A stretch of DNA of 39,300 nucleotides from Deltaproteobacteria bacterium (GTDB taxonomy: Bacteria > Myxococcota_A > Polyangia > Haliangiales > Haliangiaceae): NCBI GenBank assembly GCA_019237945.1, contig JAFAOG010000036.1, positions 1 through 39,300 of the forward strand, written 5' to 3'. Made by a program: the position numbers and the translations under genes. Positions 16,237 to 26,600 of this stretch are shown here, in pieces. Under the pieces are notes generated by a model that was given only the letters and a program-made list of their open reading frames with translations, had not been told where the DNA came from and did not search any database. The first letter of the stretch is position 1, and every line of letters starts with the position of its first letter.

Positions 16237-17457
16237 ATGGCGCTTTCGCTCGACAGCATCGTCACCGACTTGATGTTCCAGGCGTCGGCGGCGATCGACC
16301 AGAAGACGTTGATCGACGGCCTTGGAGGCGAGGCCGCGCTCGAGACGAAGCAGCTGCTCGACGTCGACCGGCTCGACCCGCGCGCGGAGATGGAGCTCTC
16401 GCCCTCGATGCCGTTCCGCCGGCGCGGCGAGCGGCGGCTGATGATCATCGACGATCAGGCGACGACGCCGCGTCAGGATCCGGGCGCCGACCCGATCATC
16501 AAGACCGATCTGCGGCCGTACAAAGAGGCGCTGATCGAGATGTGCCAGAAGCTCCCCGTGCGGCTCGGGCGCGTGTTCGCGCTCGGGACGTGGGGCGATG
16601 CGGTGATCGTCGCGCGCTCGCTGCGGGACCTCCGCGGCGTGTGTCTGATCCCGTGGGCGCTCGACCCGCAGATCGACATCGATGGCAAGCGCCGCCAGAC
16701 GCCGCTGTCGCAGAAGGAGTTCGAGGCGAAGCTGATGGCGTTCGAGAAGCGCCTCGAGGAGCTCGACGATCAGCAGATCACGGCGCGGATGAGCGGCATC
16801 ACGTTCGAGCGCCGCGGCGAGGTCGTCGTGATCGACGTGCTCGAGGCCGACGGCACGTGGGACCAGCGCAAGTCGATGATGATGGAGGCGCAGCTCGCGG
16901 CGGTCGAAACGTTCTCGATGATCCCGGGCGCGCCGTCGCAGACCGCGAAGGCAGCCGAGCCCGCGCCGGCAGCGGCGAAGAAGCCCGAGGCCGCGGCCGC
17001 CGCGCCGCCGAAGGCCGAAGCGAAGAAGCCCGAGGCGCCCGCGCCGAAGCCCGAGCCGAAGGGTCCGCCGATCGCGGCGAAGGAGATCGACGGCAAGGTC
17101 GTGCTCGTGTTCCCGCCCGAGCGGTTCGATCTCGACGTCGCGGCCGCGCTCGGCAAGCGCGACTGGGATCAGGTCGTGCGGTCGTCGGATAACGTCCCCG
17201 GCGCGATGCGCGACAAGATCCAGCGTGACGGCGCGGCATGGATCGCGCCGCTCGAGTTCCTCAGCGAGGTGTTCGTCGAGGGCAAGCCGCTGACGAAGCA
17301 GCAGTTCGAGAAGGACGCGCGCCAGGTCGATGGAGGCCGCGCGCTCGACGTGCACTTCCCGCGCTTCGGCGAGGTCGTGCTGCTCGAGATCGCCGGCAAG
17401 CGCTACGTCACGTCGCTCACCGATCGCGCCGAGCGCGCCGCGCAGCTGGTGAAGTGA
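16237..17457 (+). CDS. Conserved-looking hypothetical protein with Ala/Pro/Lys linker
   Basis: The 406-residue protein has no signal peptide or membrane helix and should be cytoplasmic. It has two folded parts. Residues 1-235 include RRLMIIDDQ, VFALGTWGDAVIVARSLRDLRG and a polar helical segment (FEAKLMAFEKRLEELDD). Residues about 285-406 include GKVVLVFPPERFDLD and KRYVTSLTDRAERAAQL. They are joined by a low-complexity linker of Ala, Pro, Lys and Glu. I do not recognise the family. A good Shine-Dalgarno sequence (AAGGG, 5-nt spacing) precedes the ATG, 12 nt after the VWA gene, and its stop overlaps the next start (TGATG). It belongs to the DUF4159/VWA operon. Confidence 0.8.
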   Translation: MALSLDSIVTDLMFQASAAIDQKTLIDGLGGEAALETKQLLDVDRLDPRAEMELSPSMPFRRRGERRLMIIDDQATTPRQDPGADPIIKTDLRPYKEALIEMCQKLPVRLGRVFALGTWGDAVIVARSLRDLRGVCLIPWALDPQIDIDGKRRQTPLSQKEFEAKLMAFEKRLEELDDQQITARMSGITFERRGEVVVIDVLEADGTWDQRKSMMMEAQLAAVETFSMIPGAPSQTAKAAEPAPAAAKKPEAAAAAPPKAEAKKPEAPAPKPEPKGPPIAAKEIDGKVVLVFPPERFDLDVAAALGKRDWDQVVRSSDNVPGAMRDKIQRDGAAWIAPLEFLSEVFVEGKPLTKQQFEKDARQVDGGRALDVHFPRFGEVVLLEIAGKRYVTSLTDRAERAAQLVK

Positions 17458-18554
17458 TGCGCGCGGTCGTCGTCGCGCTCGCCCTGCTCACCGCAACGGC
17501 GTACGCCGACGACGAACCCGCCGGCAACATCATCTTCGCGCGCGGCGGCCAGCTGTTCCGCGTCGACACGCGCGGCCGCGGCGAGACGGCGATCGCGACG
17601 CTGCCCGCCAAGGCGACCGTCCGCGCGCTGCGCACCGACGCGGCCGGCAAGATCCTGCTCGTCGACCTCGGGGGAAAGTGGCTGTGGATGCCGCTCGACG
17701 GCACGGCCGCGCTCGCCGAGCTGCCGTGCGCTGACGGTCCCGCGCAGCTCGCCGAGGACGGCGCGTGCGTGCTGTGCTCGAGCGCGAGCGGCTCGCAGAT
17801 CGTCAACCTCGGCAACGGCAAGACGACGCCGATCGAGATTCCCGCACCGGGCGCCCGCCTCGCCCACGCCGGCGCCGATCGCGTGCTCGTGTGGACCGAC
17901 GGCAAGTCCGTGTTCACCGCGCCGCCGCGCGCGCCGAAGCAGTCGAAGGTCGTCGCGCCCGAGGCGCCGCTGCGCGGGTTCTCGCCGTCGCCCGACGCGT
18001 CGCACGCGTTCGGCGTCTACGCCGACGAGATCTACACCGACGCGCATCACAAGAAGCCGGCCGACGTCCTCGAGGTCTTCGCGCTCGACGTCCAGGGCGC
18101 GCGCCGCAAGAGCGTGAAGTCGGGCGTGCCGTTCGAGTGGTCGCACGACTCGCAGTGGGCGCTCGTGCAGGACGGCTCGCAGGCGTGCATCGTTCGCGCT
18201 TCGGGCGGCCAGTACAAATGCTGGCGCGGCTTCTCCCCGGCGAGCATCGCTCCCGACGGCAAGTACGCGCTGCTGCTGTTCGCGCGCGACAAGAAGCCGC
18301 CGCCTCCTCCGCCGCGCAAGCTCCCGAAGGACAAGCACGGCCGCCCGATCCTGCCGAAGTCGCCGCCGCCCGATCAGCCAACGGACGAGGGCGAAGGAGA
18401 CGAGACCGAAGCTCCCGCCGAGGACGTCGCGATTCCGCCGCCCTCGGGCCCGCTGTCGCTGTACCGCGCGCAGCTCGAGGGCGCATTCACGACCGCGCCC
18501 CAGCTGATCGTCAAGGCGGTCGACGGCGCGGCCGTGTGGGTGCCCGCCCCGTAG
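17457..18554 (+). CDS. Exported WD40/TolB-like beta-propeller protein
   Basis: The 365-residue precursor has a signal peptide (MRAVVVALALLTATAYA). It then shows repeated units of the kind seen in PD40/TolB-type propellers: NIIFARGGQLFRVDTRG, LRTDAAGKILLVDLGGKWLW, AHAGADRVLVWTDGKSVF, VPFEWSHDSQWALVQDG and ASIAPDGKYALLLFARD. A Pro/Lys-rich then acidic insertion (about residues 280-330) precedes the last blade. The start is the ATG overlapping the stop of the previous gene by one nucleotide. Probably periplasmic and the last gene of the DUF4159/VWA operon; ligand unknown. Confidence 0.8.
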   Translation: MRAVVVALALLTATAYADDEPAGNIIFARGGQLFRVDTRGRGETAIATLPAKATVRALRTDAAGKILLVDLGGKWLWMPLDGTAALAELPCADGPAQLAEDGACVLCSSASGSQIVNLGNGKTTPIEIPAPGARLAHAGADRVLVWTDGKSVFTAPPRAPKQSKVVAPEAPLRGFSPSPDASHAFGVYADEIYTDAHHKKPADVLEVFALDVQGARRKSVKSGVPFEWSHDSQWALVQDGSQACIVRASGGQYKCWRGFSPASIAPDGKYALLLFARDKKPPPPPPRKLPKDKHGRPILPKSPPPDQPTDEGEGDETEAPAEDVAIPPPSGPLSLYRAQLEGAFTTAPQLIVKAVDGAAVWVPAP

Positions 18555-18571: not shown

Positions 18572-18991
18572 ATGCGCACGCTGCTGTTCGGACTCGCGCT
18601 CTCGCTCGCGGCCGTCACGGGCTGCAACGCCGACAAGACCGCCTCCGCCGACAAGGCGAAGGACGAGTTTCCCGCCCTCTCGATGGACGACGTCCAGAAG
18701 GGCATCGAGGGCAAGACGCTGACGGCCGTCGACTGCAACGGCGACCGCACGCGCAAGAAGCTGGGCACGCTGCCCGGCGCGATCGTCGTCTCCGACGAGG
18801 AATCGTTCGAGGCGAAGGAGCTACCGGCCGACAAGGCTACCAAGCTCGTCTTCTACTGCGCAAACCCTGGTTGACACGCCTGCCATGTTGGCGCCGGGCG
18901 CGCCAAGAAGCTGGGCTACACGAACCTGTACGTCATGCCGGATGGCATCGAGGGCTGGGTCAAGGCCGGCAAGCCGGTCCAGAAGACCTGA
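18572..18991 (+). CDS. Rhodanese-like lipoprotein with in-frame TGA, candidate selenoprotein
   Basis: The frame codes for a lipoprotein signal (LAAVTGC, Cys18) and a rhodanese-like domain up to LVFYCANPG, then TGA at codon 101 (18872-18874). It continues in the same frame without another stop through HACHVGAGRAKKLGYTN and LYVMPDGIEGWVKAGKP to a TGA at 18989-18991. The 38 codons after the TGA are clearly the missing end of the domain. If TGA is read as selenocysteine, the protein has 139 residues, with the presumed catalytic Cys96, Sec101 and Cys104 (a UxxC redox motif). A hairpin with the expected bacterial SECIS geometry follows. Alternatives are a nonsense mutation or a base error (TGC/TGT to TGA), which would leave a 100-aa fragment. 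Confidence 0.7.
18888..18906 (+). promoter_or_regulatory. Candidate bacterial SECIS hairpin
   Basis: TTGGCGC pairs perfectly with GCGCCAA around the loop CGGGC. The loop begins 20 nt after the TGA, inside the 16-37 nt window described for bacterial SECIS elements. It has a G among its first two bases, as SelB recognition needs. The whole element is inside the coding sequence, as in bacteria. Confidence 0.6.
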
Positions 18992-19003: not shown

Positions 19004-19501
19004 TCACAGCGTCGGGACCAGCTCGGCCAGCTGGTCGAGCGTCTCGCGCATGCCTCTCTCCATTCCGCTCGCGAGCACGCCGTCGAGGACTTCCTTCGAC
19101 GGAAACCGCTCGTTCTGCGTGAACAGCGTGCCCAGCGGGTGCGCGGCATAGACGGACGTGATGATGCCCTCGCCGGCCTGCGGCATCGGCTCGAACACCT
19201 GCGTGTAGACGACGCGCGCGCCCGGCTCGACCTCGAGGTAGCGGCCGTTGAACGCCATCGTCGGCTCGCCCGCCTTGCCGAACACGTAGCGGTAGCGGCC
19301 GCCGACGCGCACGTCCGCCTCCGCGGAGTGCAGGATGACGCCGAGCGAGCACGGCGCCCACCAGCGCTTGAGCAGCTCGGGGTTCGTCATCGCGTTGAAC
19401 ACGGTCTGCGGCTTTGCGCGGAACGCGCGGCGGATCTGCAGCTCGTTCGGCGCGATGCGCTCGACGTGGGTCGTGAGGAGGTCAGCGTTTGCGTCGGCCA
19501 T
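19004..19501 (-). CDS. SRPBCC / AHSA1-family protein
   Basis: The 165-residue protein has the START-like fold signature of the AHSA1 family: LQIRRAFRAKPQTVFNAMTN, ELLKRWWAP, VGGRYRYVFG, FNGRYLEVEPGARVVYTQVF and the C-terminal helix ERGMRETLDQLAELV. These small proteins bind a hydrophobic ligand in a deep pocket; the ligand here is unknown. Chromosomal pairs of an ArsR-type repressor and an AHSA1 protein are very common. Its ATG lies 20 nt inside the end of the ArsR gene, so the two are translated from one mRNA. It ends 12 nt from the convergent rhodanese gene. Confidence 0.9.
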   Translation of the reverse strand: MADANADLLTTHVERIAPNELQIRRAFRAKPQTVFNAMTNPELLKRWWAPCSLGVILHSAEADVRVGGRYRYVFGKAGEPTMAFNGRYLEVEPGARVVYTQVFEPMPQAGEGIITSVYAAHPLGTLFTQNERFPSKEVLDGVLASGMERGMRETLDQLAELVPTL

Positions 19502-19811
19502 GAGGGTTCTCCATCTCTTCGAGCAGGTCGTCGAGGGCGCGTGCGCGCGCGTCCCACAGCTGCCGGTAACGATCGAGCCAGTCGTGCAGCTCGCGCAGCG
19601 GCGCGGCGCGCAGGCCGTAGACGCGTTGCTGGGCGCGCGCCTCGACATCGACCAGTCCGGCTTCCTTGAGGACGCGCAGGTGCTTGCTGACCTGCGGTTG
19701 GTTGAGATCGAGGCGTTCGCCGATCGCGTTGACCGTGCGCGGACCTGCGCGCAGCAGCTCGACGATGCGAAAGCGATTGGGCTCGGCCAGCGCGGCGAAC
19801 GTCTCGACCAC
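19482..19811 (-). CDS. ArsR-family winged-helix repressor
   Basis: This 109-residue DNA-binding protein has the typical N-terminus FAALAEPNRFRIVELLRAGPR, the recognition region AIGERLDLNQPQVSKHLRVL, and the wing KEAGLVDVEARAQQRVYGL. No metal-binding cysteines (such as ELCVCDL) are present, so it does not look like a metal sensor; non-metal ArsR proteins usually pair with AHSA1 genes, as here. The GTG at 19811 is preceded by CATATT and 6 nt, with TTGACA 18 nt further upstream. Copies of an inverted repeat overlap these promoter elements and are the likely operator for autoregulation. Confidence 0.92.
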   Translation of the reverse strand: MVETFAALAEPNRFRIVELLRAGPRTVNAIGERLDLNQPQVSKHLRVLKEAGLVDVEARAQQRVYGLRAAPLRELHDWLDRYRQLWDARARALDDLLEEMENPHGRRKR

Positions 19812-20534: not shown

Positions 20535-21875
20535 ATGAGACATCGCATCCTCAGTGCCGCGGTGATCGTGGTCGGGCTGGCTGCCCGCGCGCACGCCGAT
20601 GGCGACCCTCACCTCGACGTCGAGAAGTACACGCTGCCGAACGGCCTGGAAGTCATCCTGGCGCCGGATCAGAGCGTGCCGCTCGTCGCGGTCAACGTCT
20701 GGTACCACGTCGGCAGCGGCAACGAGGTCCCGCACCGCAGCGGGTTCGCGCACCTGTTCGAGCACATGATGTTCCAGGGCTCGAAGAACACGGGGCCGGA
20801 CGCGCACTTCAAGATCCTGCGCGAGGTCGGGGCGAGCGACGTCAACGGGACGACGAACACCGACCGCACGAATTACTTCGAGGTCGTGCCGAGCAATCAG
20901 ATCGAGACCGCGCTGTGGCTCGAGAGCGATCGCATGGGCCACCTGCTCGACATCCTCGACAAGAAGGAGCTCGAGAACCAGATCGACGTCGTCCGCAACG
21001 AGAAGCGGCAGAACTACGACAACGTCGCGTATCGCAAGGCGCTGTTCTCCGAGTTCGAGGCGCTGTACCCGGAGGGACACCCGTATCGCCACCTGACGAT
21101 CGGCCTGCACGAGGACCTCGTCGCCGCGTCGGTTGAAGACGTGAAGAATTTTTTCCGCACGTGGTACGTGCCATCGAACGCAACGCTGACGATCAGCGGC
21201 GACTTCGACACCGGCGAGGCGAAGAAGCTCGTCGAGAAGTGGTTTGGCTCGTTCCCCAGGAGCGCAAAGCCGGCGGCGATCAAGATCCCCGCGCCGACGG
21301 TCTCCGCGAAGGAAGTCTCCGTCGAGGACAGCTTCGCGAAGCTGCGCCAGGTCTCGTACGTGTGGCACTCGCCGGCGAGCTACGCACCCGATGATGCCGA
21401 GCTCGACATCGCGGCCGCCGCGCTCGGGCGCGAGGGCTGGGGCCGGCTGTACAAGCGGCTCGTCTACGAGAAGCAGCTCGCGCAGAGCGTGCGCGTCAAC
21501 CAGGGCGGCATGACGTTCTCGGGGATCTTCGACATCACCGTGACGCTGCGCAGCGGCGCCGATCTCGGCGAGGTGAAGAAGATCGTCATGGAGGAGGTCG
21601 AGCGCATCAAGAAGGAGAACCTCGACCAGAAGGACCTCGATCGCGTCATCGCGTCGAACGAGTCGGGGATGATCCACCAGCTCGAGAACCTCAACAACCG
21701 CGCGAACGTCCTGCAGGAGTACAACCAGTTCCTCGGCGATCCGAACAAGCTCACGTGGGACCTCGATCGCTACCGCAAGACCACCCCTGCGAAGGTCCGG
21801 GAGGCCGCCGCGCGCTACCTCGACCCCGCGCACATGATCACCGTGATCACGAATCCGGCGGGAGGTTCCAAGTGA
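20535..21875 (+). CDS. M16-family zinc peptidase (active subunit)
   Basis: The 446-residue precursor has a signal peptide (ILSAAVIVVGLAARAHA). The inverted zinc motif HxxEH is intact in SGFAHLFEHMMFQG (His73, Glu76, His77), with the third ligand probably Glu156 in VVRNEKRQN. The second, non-catalytic half of the M16 fold includes RQVSYVWHSPA and RLYKRLVYEKQLAQSV. M16 enzymes degrade or process peptides in a clam-shell chamber, often as a heterodimer of active and inactive subunits. This one is followed by such a partner through a GTGA overlap. Both are exported, so the pair should act in the periplasm or outer membrane. Confidence 0.93.
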   Translation: MRHRILSAAVIVVGLAARAHADGDPHLDVEKYTLPNGLEVILAPDQSVPLVAVNVWYHVGSGNEVPHRSGFAHLFEHMMFQGSKNTGPDAHFKILREVGASDVNGTTNTDRTNYFEVVPSNQIETALWLESDRMGHLLDILDKKELENQIDVVRNEKRQNYDNVAYRKALFSEFEALYPEGHPYRHLTIGLHEDLVAASVEDVKNFFRTWYVPSNATLTISGDFDTGEAKKLVEKWFGSFPRSAKPAAIKIPAPTVSAKEVSVEDSFAKLRQVSYVWHSPASYAPDDAELDIAAAALGREGWGRLYKRLVYEKQLAQSVRVNQGGMTFSGIFDITVTLRSGADLGEVKKIVMEEVERIKKENLDQKDLDRVIASNESGMIHQLENLNNRANVLQEYNQFLGDPNKLTWDLDRYRKTTPAKVREAAARYLDPAHMITVITNPAGGSK

Positions 21876-23536
21876 AGAAGCTGCTTCTCCTGATGCTCGT
21901 CGCCTGTCACTCGGCGACGCCCGCCGCCACGACGCCCGCACCGGCGCCCGCTCCCGCTCCGGCTCCCGAGCCGATGAAACCCGCGCCGCCGCCGCCGGAG
22001 GCTCCGAAGATGGTGACCCAGACCGCTCAGCCGCAGAATCTGCAATTCCCCGACGAGGACTTCCGCACGAAGCAGCCGGCCGCTGGTCCGCCGCGCCCGT
22101 TCAAGCTGCCGCCGGTGAAGCCGTTCACGCTGAAAAACGGCATCAAGGTCTACCTCGTCGAGCAGCACACGCTGCCGATCGTGTCGATGGACCTCAACTT
22201 CGACGGCGGCTCGCTGACAGATCCCAAGGGCAAGGATGGCCTCGCCGGCGTCTGCACGCAGCTGCTGACCGAGGGCACCGACAAGCTCGACAAGATCCAG
22301 TACAGCGAGGCGCTCGCCGACATCGCGTCGAGCATCAACGCGTACGCCGCGGATGACTCGCAGGGCGTGACGCTGTCGTCGCTGACGAAGCACCTCGACG
22401 CGACGTTCGCGCTGTTCTCCGACACGATCCTGACGCCGGGCCTGCGCGCGCCGGACTTCGATCGCCTGCTCAAGCGGCGCATCGAGAGCGTCAAGCAGCA
22501 GCGCGGCAACCCGACGTCGATCCCGGGCCGCGTGATGGGCAAGGTCCTCTACGGCGCGACGCACCCGCTCGGCAGCGTCACGACCGAGCAATCGCTCGCC
22601 GCGATCACGCTCGACGACTGCAAGAAGCAGCTCGCGACGTGGATGAAGCCGAAGAACGCACGGCTGTTCGTCGTCGGCGACGTGACCGAGGCGCAGATCA
22701 AGGATGCGTTCGAGAAGTCGCCGCTCGCGAAGTGGAGCGGGGCCGCGCCCGCCGAGCCGCGCCTGCCGCCGGCGAAGACGCTGCCGGGCCGGATCTTCTT
22801 CGTCAACGTGCCGAAGGCGGCGCAGTCGAGCGTGATGGTGCTGCAGCTGGGCCCGACGCGCACGGCGCCGGATTACTTCGCGAGCTCGATGATGGGCGCC
22901 GTGTTCGGCGGCAGCTTCACGAGCCGCCTCAACATGAACCTGCGCGAGGACAAGGGCTACTCGTACGGCGCGCGCGGCGGGTTCTCGTATCCGCTGAAGT
23001 CGCTCGGCGTGTTGACGGTCAGCGCGCCGGTGCAGGCCGATGCGACGTATCAGGCGCTGCGCGAGGTCGATCGCGAGATGAAGGAGCTCGCGTCGGGCAA
23101 GACGCCCGTGACCAAGGACGAGCTCGAGCGCGAGAAGACGAATGCGATCCTCGCGCTTCCCGGCCGCTTCTCGACGGCAGGCGCCGCGCTCGGTCAGTAC
23201 CGTAGCCTCGTGTACTACGGGCTCCCACTGGACTACTTCAATACCTACGTCGCGAACGTGCAGAAGGTGAACGAGGCGCAAGCGAAGGCGGCCGCCGCGA
23301 AGAACCTGCGCCCGGGGCAGGCCGTGTATCTCGTCGTCGGTGATGGCGACGCGAAGATGATCGTCCACAACGACAAGTCGAAGAAGGACGACCCGGCCGA
23401 CGTCCGCCGGCTCCCGTATCAGAAGGACGGCAAGCAGCTGACGCTGCGGGAAGCGCTGACCGAGCTCGCGAAGAGCGGGGATGTAGGCTCGGGTGGTCTG
23501 GTCGAGCTCGATGTCGACGGTGCGATCGTGCACTGA
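21872..23536 (+). CDS. M16-like lipoprotein lacking the zinc motif (inactive partner)
   Basis: The 554-residue protein has a lipoprotein signal (MKKLLLLMLVAC) and an Ala/Pro linker. Two M16 domains follow, with FTLKNGIKVYLVEQHTLPIV, ARLFVVGDVTEAQIKDAF, GGSFTSRLNMNLREDKGYSYG and VTKDELEREKTNAIL. Where the active subunit has HLFEH this one reads GLAGVCTQLLTEGTD, so zinc cannot be bound and it should be the structural subunit. The RLNMNLREDKGYSYG segment contains the R/Y pair that helps bind substrate in M16 dimers. GTG 21872 overlaps the upstream stop and has a good Shine-Dalgarno sequence (GGAGG, 6-nt spacing). Confidence 0.92.
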   Translation: MKKLLLLMLVACHSATPAATTPAPAPAPAPAPEPMKPAPPPPEAPKMVTQTAQPQNLQFPDEDFRTKQPAAGPPRPFKLPPVKPFTLKNGIKVYLVEQHTLPIVSMDLNFDGGSLTDPKGKDGLAGVCTQLLTEGTDKLDKIQYSEALADIASSINAYAADDSQGVTLSSLTKHLDATFALFSDTILTPGLRAPDFDRLLKRRIESVKQQRGNPTSIPGRVMGKVLYGATHPLGSVTTEQSLAAITLDDCKKQLATWMKPKNARLFVVGDVTEAQIKDAFEKSPLAKWSGAAPAEPRLPPAKTLPGRIFFVNVPKAAQSSVMVLQLGPTRTAPDYFASSMMGAVFGGSFTSRLNMNLREDKGYSYGARGGFSYPLKSLGVLTVSAPVQADATYQALREVDREMKELASGKTPVTKDELEREKTNAILALPGRFSTAGAALGQYRSLVYYGLPLDYFNTYVANVQKVNEAQAKAAAAKNLRPGQAVYLVVGDGDAKMIVHNDKSKKDDPADVRRLPYQKDGKQLTLREALTELAKSGDVGSGGLVELDVDGAIVH

Positions 23537-23642: not shown

Positions 23643-26600
23643 ATGCGCGATCTGTTCAAGTTGGCTTTGGTCTGCGCGGCGCTCGCTCTGCCGACAGCGT
23701 CGCGAGCCGGCACGTCTTACAACTTTCCTGCGAACACGATCATCATCCCGACGAACGCGGCGTGGCAAGACGACTGCGGCGCGGTGTCGGCGTACGGCCT
23801 CGTCTACGACGTCCTTCGCGCGAACTCGTGGCTCGACGCGAACGGCTACGGCCACATCACGATCTACTACATCATCAGCGACACCAAGGCGTCGCCGAAC
23901 CGCTGCCTGCCGACAAACCTCGACACGCAGCCCGCGGGCGTCGCGGTGATGCCTTCGTCGGGAACGTGCACCGGCTCGTGCCTGACCGACTCGTCGTGGA
24001 ACGACGGCTGCGACATCACGGTGACGAACTCGACGGGCACGCCCGTCAAGACGCTGACGTTCGGCGCCGGCACGATGACCGCCGGCACGACGTCCTCGTT
24101 CAACACGACGGCGAAGTCGAACGTGTCGCCGCGCTTCAGCAGCCGCACCATCAACTCGTCGGTGACGACGGTGCGCTATTCGGGTGGCCCGTTCGTGATC
24201 ACGGGTAGCGACGTCACGACGTTCCAGAACCTGATGAAGGGCACGATCATCGCCAAGGACAGCCAGAACAACAACATCGACTTCTCGATCTTCAGGACGT
24301 TCAACGCCTCGGGCACCGAGAAGCAGCCCGGCGTCGGCGACGCGTGCACGCTCGCGACCGACAACTTCGTGTGGATCCACCAGGCGCAGGCCGCGTTCAC
24401 CGCGACGATCGACAAGTCGTTCACGCAGACGCCGCCCCGGCTCGCGCTCCTCGCGCACGACAAGAACAACACGAGTGGCACGAACTCCGGCGCGCCGGCG
24501 GGCGTCGTCGACGGCATCCTCGAGGCGTACCTCGATGACGCCGGCCTCAAGTTCACCGGTGCCGGCGGCTGCCCCTCGGACGGCGTCAACATCGCGAACG
24601 CCGCGAAGTGTCCGACCGGCGCGGTCAACGGGCAGATCTACGACCTGTTCGACATCCAGGATCTCGCGAGCTCGAATTCGACGACGCACACCGGCATCTA
24701 CAAGCTCGATGCGAGCAACAGTCCGAAGTACACGATGCTGTGGACGCCGCACTGGCGCCTCGGCAGCGGCACGACACCGAGCGCCGAGGAGAGCAGCGCG
24801 CTCGCCACGGTCAGCTCGTTCCTCGACGGCGTCAACGGCGCGAGCGGTCTGATGGGCGAGTGTGCGGCGATCAGCTCGTACGAAGGCGGCTCGTTCGCGC
24901 CGAGCCCGAGCACGCTGCGACTGCAGACCTGCGCCGGCACCTCGTCGTGCACGGGTACCGGCACGTACCAGATCACGGCGACGTCGACCGCTCCGGGCTT
25001 CGGCGGCTACTACCCGAACTGCAGTGACGTCAGCGTCGCCGCGAACAGCAGCACGAACTGCGCGTACTATAACGTCCCGAGCGACCCGTTCGCGCAGATC
25101 GGCGAGTATCTGTGGGCCGAGCGCTACGGCACCGTCGGCGATTTCAAGCCGACTGCCGGCTACATCTACAAGCCCGGCGTCACGCCGCTGGTGTCGAAGA
25201 TCTCCGGCCTCGGAAGCCGCAGCCACCTGACGAGCTACTCGCTGATGTACAGCTCGGGCGAGATCGACGAGGACTTCGCCACCCGCAACGTGAAGGACAA
25301 CACGTCGGGCAAGGGCAACATCCTTTACATGGGCGGCCACGACCAGTCGGCCGAGGTCGCCGGCACCAAGGTCGTGCTCGAGACGCTGCTCCAGCTCGGC
25401 TTCACGACCGTCGTCCCGCCGACCTCGACGTTCGAGGTCTCGCGCGCGTCGCCGATCGTCGCGACGATCAGCTCGCAGACGGCGATCGTGCAAGGCACGT
25501 TCGAATCGGTGACTCCGGCGACGACCGCGAAGACGGTGACGACCGCCGCGGACACCGCCTCGTTCATCTTCCCCGCCGTCTACGGCCACATGCGCGCGCG
25601 CACCGCGGCCTCTGTCTCGACGACGGCATCGACGTTCTCGAGCGGTACGGTGCTGTTCGACGCGGCGAACGGCATCCCGCTGTCTACGTACACCGGTTGC
25701 TCGAGCCCGTTCGCAGGAAGCTGCCGGTCGATCTTCACGACGACCGCCACACCGTCGACGACCACCGGCATCGCATTGCATCCGAGCCGCGTGATGGTCG
25801 ACGAGAGCAACGCGGCGACGCTGGGACCGCTGATGGTCTCCGGTTTCACGACGGCGCAGGCGCAGGCGTTCATCGACCGCATCCTCGCGGGCGTTCCGAA
25901 CGGCGCCGGCGGCTATACCTCGAAGCTCGGTGGTGTCGATCGCTCGACGGTCGCCGTGGTGGGCGCGAGCAACGTCGTCTCGACCACGCGCCCGACGATG
26001 GTCTACTTCGGCGCGACCGACGGCATGCTGCACGCGGTGTGTGGCAGCGTCACCGGCGCCTGTGATTCGCTCGGCCGCGAGCTGTGGGCGTTCATCCCGC
26101 GCACCAACCTGCCGTACCTGCGCCTCAACACGGCGCGCGTCGACGGCTCCGTTCGCGTGTTCGATGCGTTCGGCGACTTCTCGGGCAGCGGTACGAAGAG
26201 CTTCCGCACGCTGCTCGCGTTCCAGACCGGCTGGGGTGACCCGACGACATCGGGCAAGACGCCGTCGGTCATCGAGATGGACGTCACCGATCCGACGAAT
26301 CCGACCGTCGTGTTCGAGTACACGATTCCGAACCCGTCGTCGCGTGGCACCAACGAGCTCGGCGTCGGCCTGACGCTCGGCGAAGGCTCCGTCGCGATCA
26401 GCGGCACCAACACGCCGGTGCTGTTCGCAGAGACGAACAACGGCGGCACCGCGGGTGCCGGCGCGACCGTGATCGCGATCAATGCGTCGACGGGCGCCCA
26501 GATCTGGAAGTTCGGCTACACGTATCCGAACCCGCGCACCGGTGGTGACTCCGCGGTGCCCGCGACCGGTATTCCGGGCGGAGCCGTCCCCGTCGACAAG

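Follow-up and report, generated by a model that had tools for sequence, protein, structure and literature searches.

In rhodaneses, a loop cysteine carries sulfane sulfur in the form of a persulfide. Rhodanese-like selenoproteins have been published in five forms (PMC13188914). Form 1 is a PF00581 protein with the motif UxxS (WP_010941598.1; Table 1 of PMC13188914), form 3 (NF041203) carries LYCAU, with the motif CxU, and form 5, TsoB (NF045694), is a rhodanese/DsbD fusion with the motif UxxxxU (PMC13188914). A 'sulfurtransferase homologous to a rhodanese-like protein' is named as a bacterial selenoprotein family (a table row of PMC5029168; PMC2398784), and a rhodanese-like selenoprotein is recorded in a marine deltaproteobacterium (PMC8318568). 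The published forms are catalogued mainly by motif, and a selenoprotein gene can readily be mistaken for a truncated one.

The window analysed here, a stretch of 39,300 nucleotides, contains a rhodanese lipoprotein gene with an in-frame TGA that is, on sequence grounds, almost certainly a genuine selenoprotein gene. Its best explanation, which we consider very probable, is a selenocysteine (Sec) rhodanese lipoprotein whose UGA would be decoded by means of SelB and a hairpin, and in which Cys96 and Sec101 would carry out persulfide chemistry.

A rhodanese domain interrupted by a UGA codon

The open reading frame begins with the ATG at 18572, contains a TGA at codon 101 and, by its translation, stays open to a second TGA. 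The features discussed below are as follows.

18572–18991, forward strand: selenoprotein gene for a rhodanese lipoprotein of 139 residues with putative Sec at position 101; terminal stop TGA at 18989–18991
18572–18625, forward strand: signal peptide with lipobox VTGC and predicted lipidated Cys18, from sequence and lipobox pattern
18683–18964, forward strand: rhodanese domain, residues 38–131, from Pfam PF00581 (E 2.4e-11) and the predicted fold
18857–18859, forward strand: Cys96, presumed catalytic Cys of the rhodanese loop, Cys in 107/107 aligned domains
18872–18874, forward strand: UGA probably read as Sec101; 33 TGA and 74 Cys codons in this column of 107 domains
18881–18883, forward strand: Cys104, UxxC partner of Sec101, not conserved (Cys in 25/33 Sec and 8/74 Cys forms)
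18888–18906, forward strand: predicted SECIS apical hairpin, stem 18888–18894 with 18900–18906, loop CGGGC at 18895–18899

The readthrough protein matched the Pfam Rhodanese profile over residues 38–131 with 44.4 bits (cut-off 22.2), which places it in the superfamily. In this and the other profile and homology searches the query protein, P0001, carried one extra C-terminal residue from translation of the terminal TGA. Taken separately, the part before the TGA covered PF00581 profile positions 2–70 (21.6 bits, E 3e-4) and the part after it positions 78–101 (14.6 bits, E 0.047), both below the gathering score. The initial annotation had read the locus as one rhodanese domain split by a TGA with no frame shift, and this reading holds: the stretches of the profile covered by the two halves follow one another, in order and in the same frame. 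It had also placed the TGA five residues past the presumed catalytic Cys96, in agreement with our alignment, where Cys96 is invariant and Sec stands at Cys+5. An AlphaFold model (4-sequence alignment, mean pLDDT 75.2) has Cys96 directly after strand 91–95, as befits the catalytic cysteine, and matches the solved rhodaneses 6mxv, 2hhg, 3nhv and 1qxn in Foldseek. D54, N56, Y95 and W129 are among the core residues that are invariant in a 41-row alignment.

The N-terminus (MRTLLFGLALSLAAVTGC) has the signal sequence and lipobox of a lipoprotein, a pattern that predicts lipidation. The lipobox noted initially is therefore present, but the accompanying view that an exported lipoprotein of this kind would be unusual should be softened, since a lipobox-like N-terminus was counted by eye in 22 of the 33 Sec forms found here; a strict pattern recovers a lipobox in 12/33 Sec forms and 48/74 Cys forms.

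No conserved neighbourhood was found among two genes on each side at E values up to 1e-4, most flanks being about 1.5 kb long. In the window, the frame just upstream (17238–18554) has no Pfam match; neighbours include an AHSA1-type protein (19004–19648, reverse strand) and an M16 peptidase (21755–23536, forward strand). A plasmid search returned four records, all of them distant and all with less than 80% coverage of the query.

Selenocysteine and cysteine at position 101

Searches of 35 genomes from the order and of 377 from the phylum, the latter drawn from a larger group, led to an alignment of 109 homologous domains. Two were set aside: L106 (G271:C193), which matches rhodanese and carries one flagged TGA but is gapped at column 101, and L130 (G374:C1:3133905-3134252), a homologue with Gly in place of Cys96 and an internal TAG that is likely to be a decayed copy. 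Of the 107 domains counted, 105 come from the window's phylum and two, both with Cys, from Sutterellaceae. Column 101 contains 74 Cys codons, 33 TGA codons and nothing else, which bears out the statement in the initial annotation that relatives tend to have Cys where this gene has TGA. The 33 TGA loci are spread over 26 genomes and several clades; the nearest named relative, Kofleriaceae bacterium Bin8.14, is 68% identical, likewise has TGA at codon 101 and points to Myxococcota as the phylum. All rows with a TGA flag were retrieved, and none of the 27 rows outside the count is TGA-flagged (most have E worse than 1e-13; the others include extra copies in G163, G085 and G143, and also G244), so that TGA is over-represented in the ratio of 33 to 74. 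Duplicates (L019, equal to L015, and L065, equal to L040) were removed. The distant rhodaneses L042–L047, through which alone the weak rows of the order search (E above 1e-6) were sampled, were excluded; the column is Gly or Val in five of them and unaligned in L043. Two proteins, L121 (G174) and L128 (G124), have two Cys-type domains of the Cys+5 family in tandem in one frame.

The UxxC motif with Cys104, also pointed out in the initial annotation, is present in the window gene but is not conserved: the position is Cys in 25 and Ser in 8 of the 33 Sec genes and Cys in 8 of the 74 Cys forms, and the association of Cys104 with Sec is not significant over independent pairs (5 pairs).

On a tree of the 107 rows, the Sec/Cys label needs seven changes, five of them forced by well-supported branches. 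After removal of 17 loop and hairpin columns it needs eight, four of them forced, without breaking up the six Sec lipoproteins that form the window's clade; bootstrap support in this reduced tree is unsettled, and L105 is placed with little certainty because its long branch joins that of L134. These sequence trees imply at least four to five exchanges between Sec and Cys. Three copies were examined in the window's genome, namely the Sec lipoprotein, a second Sec rhodanese with no signal peptide (L049, G000:C212) and a Cys-type lipoprotein paralogue (L048, G000:C250). Among the copies examined, Sec and Cys forms occur together in 10 of the 26 genomes that have a Sec form. Because there are several natural Sec/Cys switches at one site and Sec and Cys paralogues in one genome, the role of Sec at the resolving position can be tested directly.

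Export, catalysis and the reductant partner of the Sec rhodanese are proposed as follows. The protein would be a small lipoprotein with one rhodanese domain, predicted to lie on the periplasmic side of a membrane. The hairpin at 18888–18906, which would double as coding sequence for residues of the domain, would recruit SelB and Sec-tRNA to decode UGA codon 101 as Sec. Cys96 would take up sulfane sulfur as a persulfide, like other rhodaneses. Sec101 lies in the same loop where 74 domains have Cys, and the loop of both forms therefore holds two chalcogen residues; the most likely role of the second is to resolve the persulfide by way of a Cys–Sec bond, in that Sec101 (Cys in the paralogues) would attack the persulfide to form a Cys96–Sec101 bond, with the sulfur released or passed on. 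The protein would then be reset by Cys104, where present, and subsequently by a reductant of the DsbD/thioredoxin type. The UxxC pair may add a step in Sec forms, since Cys104 is far more frequent in these than in Cys forms. A DsbD-type reductant is suggested by analogy with TsoB, because this published UxxxxU protein is itself a rhodanese/DsbD fusion; the window's genome encodes a DsbD/thioredoxin protein, and no genomic link between it and the Sec rhodanese gene was seen.

We put the sulfur-relay mechanism close to, though a little under, an even chance. Its wider form, too, is somewhat less likely than not. On this view the phylum has a family of rhodaneses, most of them exported, whose Cys+5 resolving position, and not the sulfur-accepting Cys, has swapped between Cys and Sec several times; Cys and Sec would then act as a two-residue persulfide relay at the cell envelope, with lipoprotein paralogues of both kinds in one genome.

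The strongest alternative, which we consider unlikely, is that the rhodanese fold acts as a scaffold for a Sec that takes part in peroxide or metal(loid) chemistry or delivers selenium, with no role in sulfur transfer. Selenoproteins of unknown function are mostly thought to be redox proteins (PMC13188914), and UxxC is frequent in the Sec forms, as such a role would have it. However, Cys96 is invariant in Sec and Cys domains alike, as are D54, N56, Y95 and W129 in the 41-row alignment, which suggests that the chemistry of Cys96 has been kept.

Decoding of the UGA codon

The host assembly (8.1 Mb in 632 contigs, 94% complete, 4.9% contamination) encodes SelA (528.9 bits), SelB (305.6 bits over model positions 1–345 of 581) and SelD (297.1 bits; C457), each over its curated cut-off, and a tRNA-Sec (71.8 bits, gathering score 47; tRNA-SeC with anticodon tca in ARAGORN). 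The initial annotation, which had seen no such machinery in the window, was open to refutation by a genome without SelB and tRNA-Sec; selA, selB, selC and selD are all present. Among 14 named control genomes, SelA was over the cut-off in 1, SelB in 2, SelD in 2 and tRNA-Sec in 5, and among the 35 genomes of the order tRNA-Sec was over the cut-off in 29 and SelA in 30. SelA was found in 25/26 genomes with a Sec form versus 31/58 with Cys forms only (Fisher p 5e-5), an association that is not significant over independent tree pairs (5 pairs). Neither SelA nor tRNA-Sec was over the cut-off in G003, a 73% complete genome with a Sec form. Besides the C457 match, the window's genome has an N-terminal piece of SelD at the end of a contig (L068, G000:C377:8-226); because this fragment carries GGGUAAK, a SelD with Sec may be encoded too. 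A genetic code in which TGA is always sense was rejected, the terminal stop being TGA in 18/33 Sec genes, the window gene included.

The published model of the bacterial SECIS element has a loop of 3–9 nt with G in the first two positions, 16–37 nt after the UGA, and an energy of −7.5 kcal/mol or lower (PMC13188914). The initial annotation had described a SECIS-like hairpin at the right distance, and the hairpin at 18888–18906 (7 bp, 20 nt from the TGA, −10.4 kcal/mol) does fit this model, as do those of all 33 Sec genes. By itself the model is weak because of its high background: it also fits 11/74 Cys genes, 101/800 TGA triplets of the window (both strands) and 4/18 terminal TGAs of Sec genes. 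The window gene's own terminal TGA passes too (−13.5 kcal/mol, loop AGCU at 37 nt) but fails a stricter form. This strict form, which we defined post hoc with the data already seen, places a loop of 4–5 nt with [N]G[G/U] at 20–21 nt; it fits 31/33 Sec genes (all except L095 and L098), 0/74 Cys genes and 2/800 window TGAs, one of which is 18872–18874. The other is at 24423 on the reverse strand and is probably a chance match, because its frame context looks non-coding.

The loop starts at nucleotide 20 or 21 after the TGA and contains G[G/U] in 30/33 Sec genes, with sequences such as CGGGC, CGUGC, GGUC, GGUCG and CGUGU. Among 16 aligned Sec genes, a stem of six pairs is kept in 99% of cells and the covariation score was reached by 0/500 shuffles; two pairs are changed on both sides, a number reached by 54/500 shuffles. 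L052, L057, L086 and L093 have another stem with the loop GGUC, and of these L057 and L093 carry a U-A for C-G exchange. The corresponding stretch of protein (GAGRA and similar) is probably shaped by the SECIS element encoded in the same sequence.

We compared selection before the TGA, after it and after the hairpin by Nei-Gojobori dN/dS. The values for these three segments were 0.24, 0.55 and 0.43 in the window's clade, where constraint is weaker downstream, 0.23, 0.20 and 0.16 in a second Sec clade, and 0.27, 0.24 and 0.23 in the Cys paralogues. Downstream decay in relatives, which would have told against a coding role, was looked for and not found; codons past the TGA are under purifying selection.

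Termination can occur at any Sec UGA when selenium is scarce. The UGA might thus be a programmed partial stop, with a 100-residue main product and Sec readthrough as a minor, selenium-sensing event, and the Cys lipoprotein paralogue L048 has been kept and could serve when selenium is short. We regard this as improbable, since the short form would be without the last third of the rhodanese domain and conservation extends past the TGA, which argues that selection keeps the long form. The initial annotation had also left room for a point mutation or base error, that is, a pseudogene or misread Cys codon in this genome only; TGC and TGT are one base from TGA and the assembly is fragmented, but the chance of this is vanishingly small and a base error is ruled out, because this TGA is shared by 33 loci from 26 genomes and several clades, each with a hairpin that fits the SECIS model, and the downstream codons are under purifying selection. 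From the Sec machinery, the TGA/Cys column, the hairpin, its covariation and purifying selection, we conclude at the level of sequence that this is a selenoprotein gene and not the product of mutation or read error.

Comparison with known rhodanese selenoproteins

Sud, the polysulfide-sulfur transferase of Wolinella (1qxn), is a small protein of rhodanese fold that ranked 14th in Foldseek at 20% identity; it is periplasmic, has one catalytic Cys and is not known to contain Sec. The PQQ-dependent catabolism-associated CXXCW protein (TIGR03865), which by its name has two Cys, gave a weak C-terminal match (E 3.1e-9) but at 36.9 bits lies below its cut-off of 128.05.

TsoB resembles the window protein in that, by its published motif, the second U lies five residues past the first, as Sec101 does past Cys96, and residues 82–138 of P0001 align to positions 102–158 of the TsoB profile with no net length change. 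The two differ in that TsoB has two Sec and a DsbD-like fusion, whereas the window protein is a single domain of 139 residues with one Sec. P0001 scores 34 bits against the NF045694 cut-off of 805 and is not a TsoB; no TsoB was found over this cut-off in the 377 phylum genomes searched.

Form 3 likewise has a rhodanese domain with Sec shortly past an invariant Cys, but its motif places Sec at Cys+2 and not at Cys+5. With 35.4 bits against the NF041203 cut-off of 115, and with Sec at Cys+5, P0001 is not a member. Seven other rhodaneses of the phylum (L137, L139, L140, L141, L142, L146 and L147) have TGA at Cys+2 (YC[TA]UP) and match NF041203 below the cut-off; these are a second, different Sec rhodanese group in the phylum.

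A search of titles and the starts of abstracts, with most subscription papers outside its reach, found no literature on Cys+5 Sec rhodaneses in Myxococcota, myxobacteria, Myxococcales or Haliangium. The 'sulfurtransferase homologous to a rhodanese-like protein', a catalogued bacterial rhodanese-like selenoprotein family (PMC5029168, PMC2398784), may include the Cys+5 family, and the rhodanese-like selenoprotein of the marine deltaproteobacterium (PMC8318568) may overlap with it.

Form 1 also has a rhodanese domain with one Sec, and its UxxS fits U101-x-x-S104 as found in 8/33 Sec forms. Compared by motif only, form 1 may share its Sec position, Cys+5, with the window's family. If the Sec of form 1 does correspond to column 101, our finding amounts to a wider set of form 1 members; unless it does, the window protein is a rhodanese-like selenoprotein set apart, among forms compared by motif, by Sec at Cys+5.
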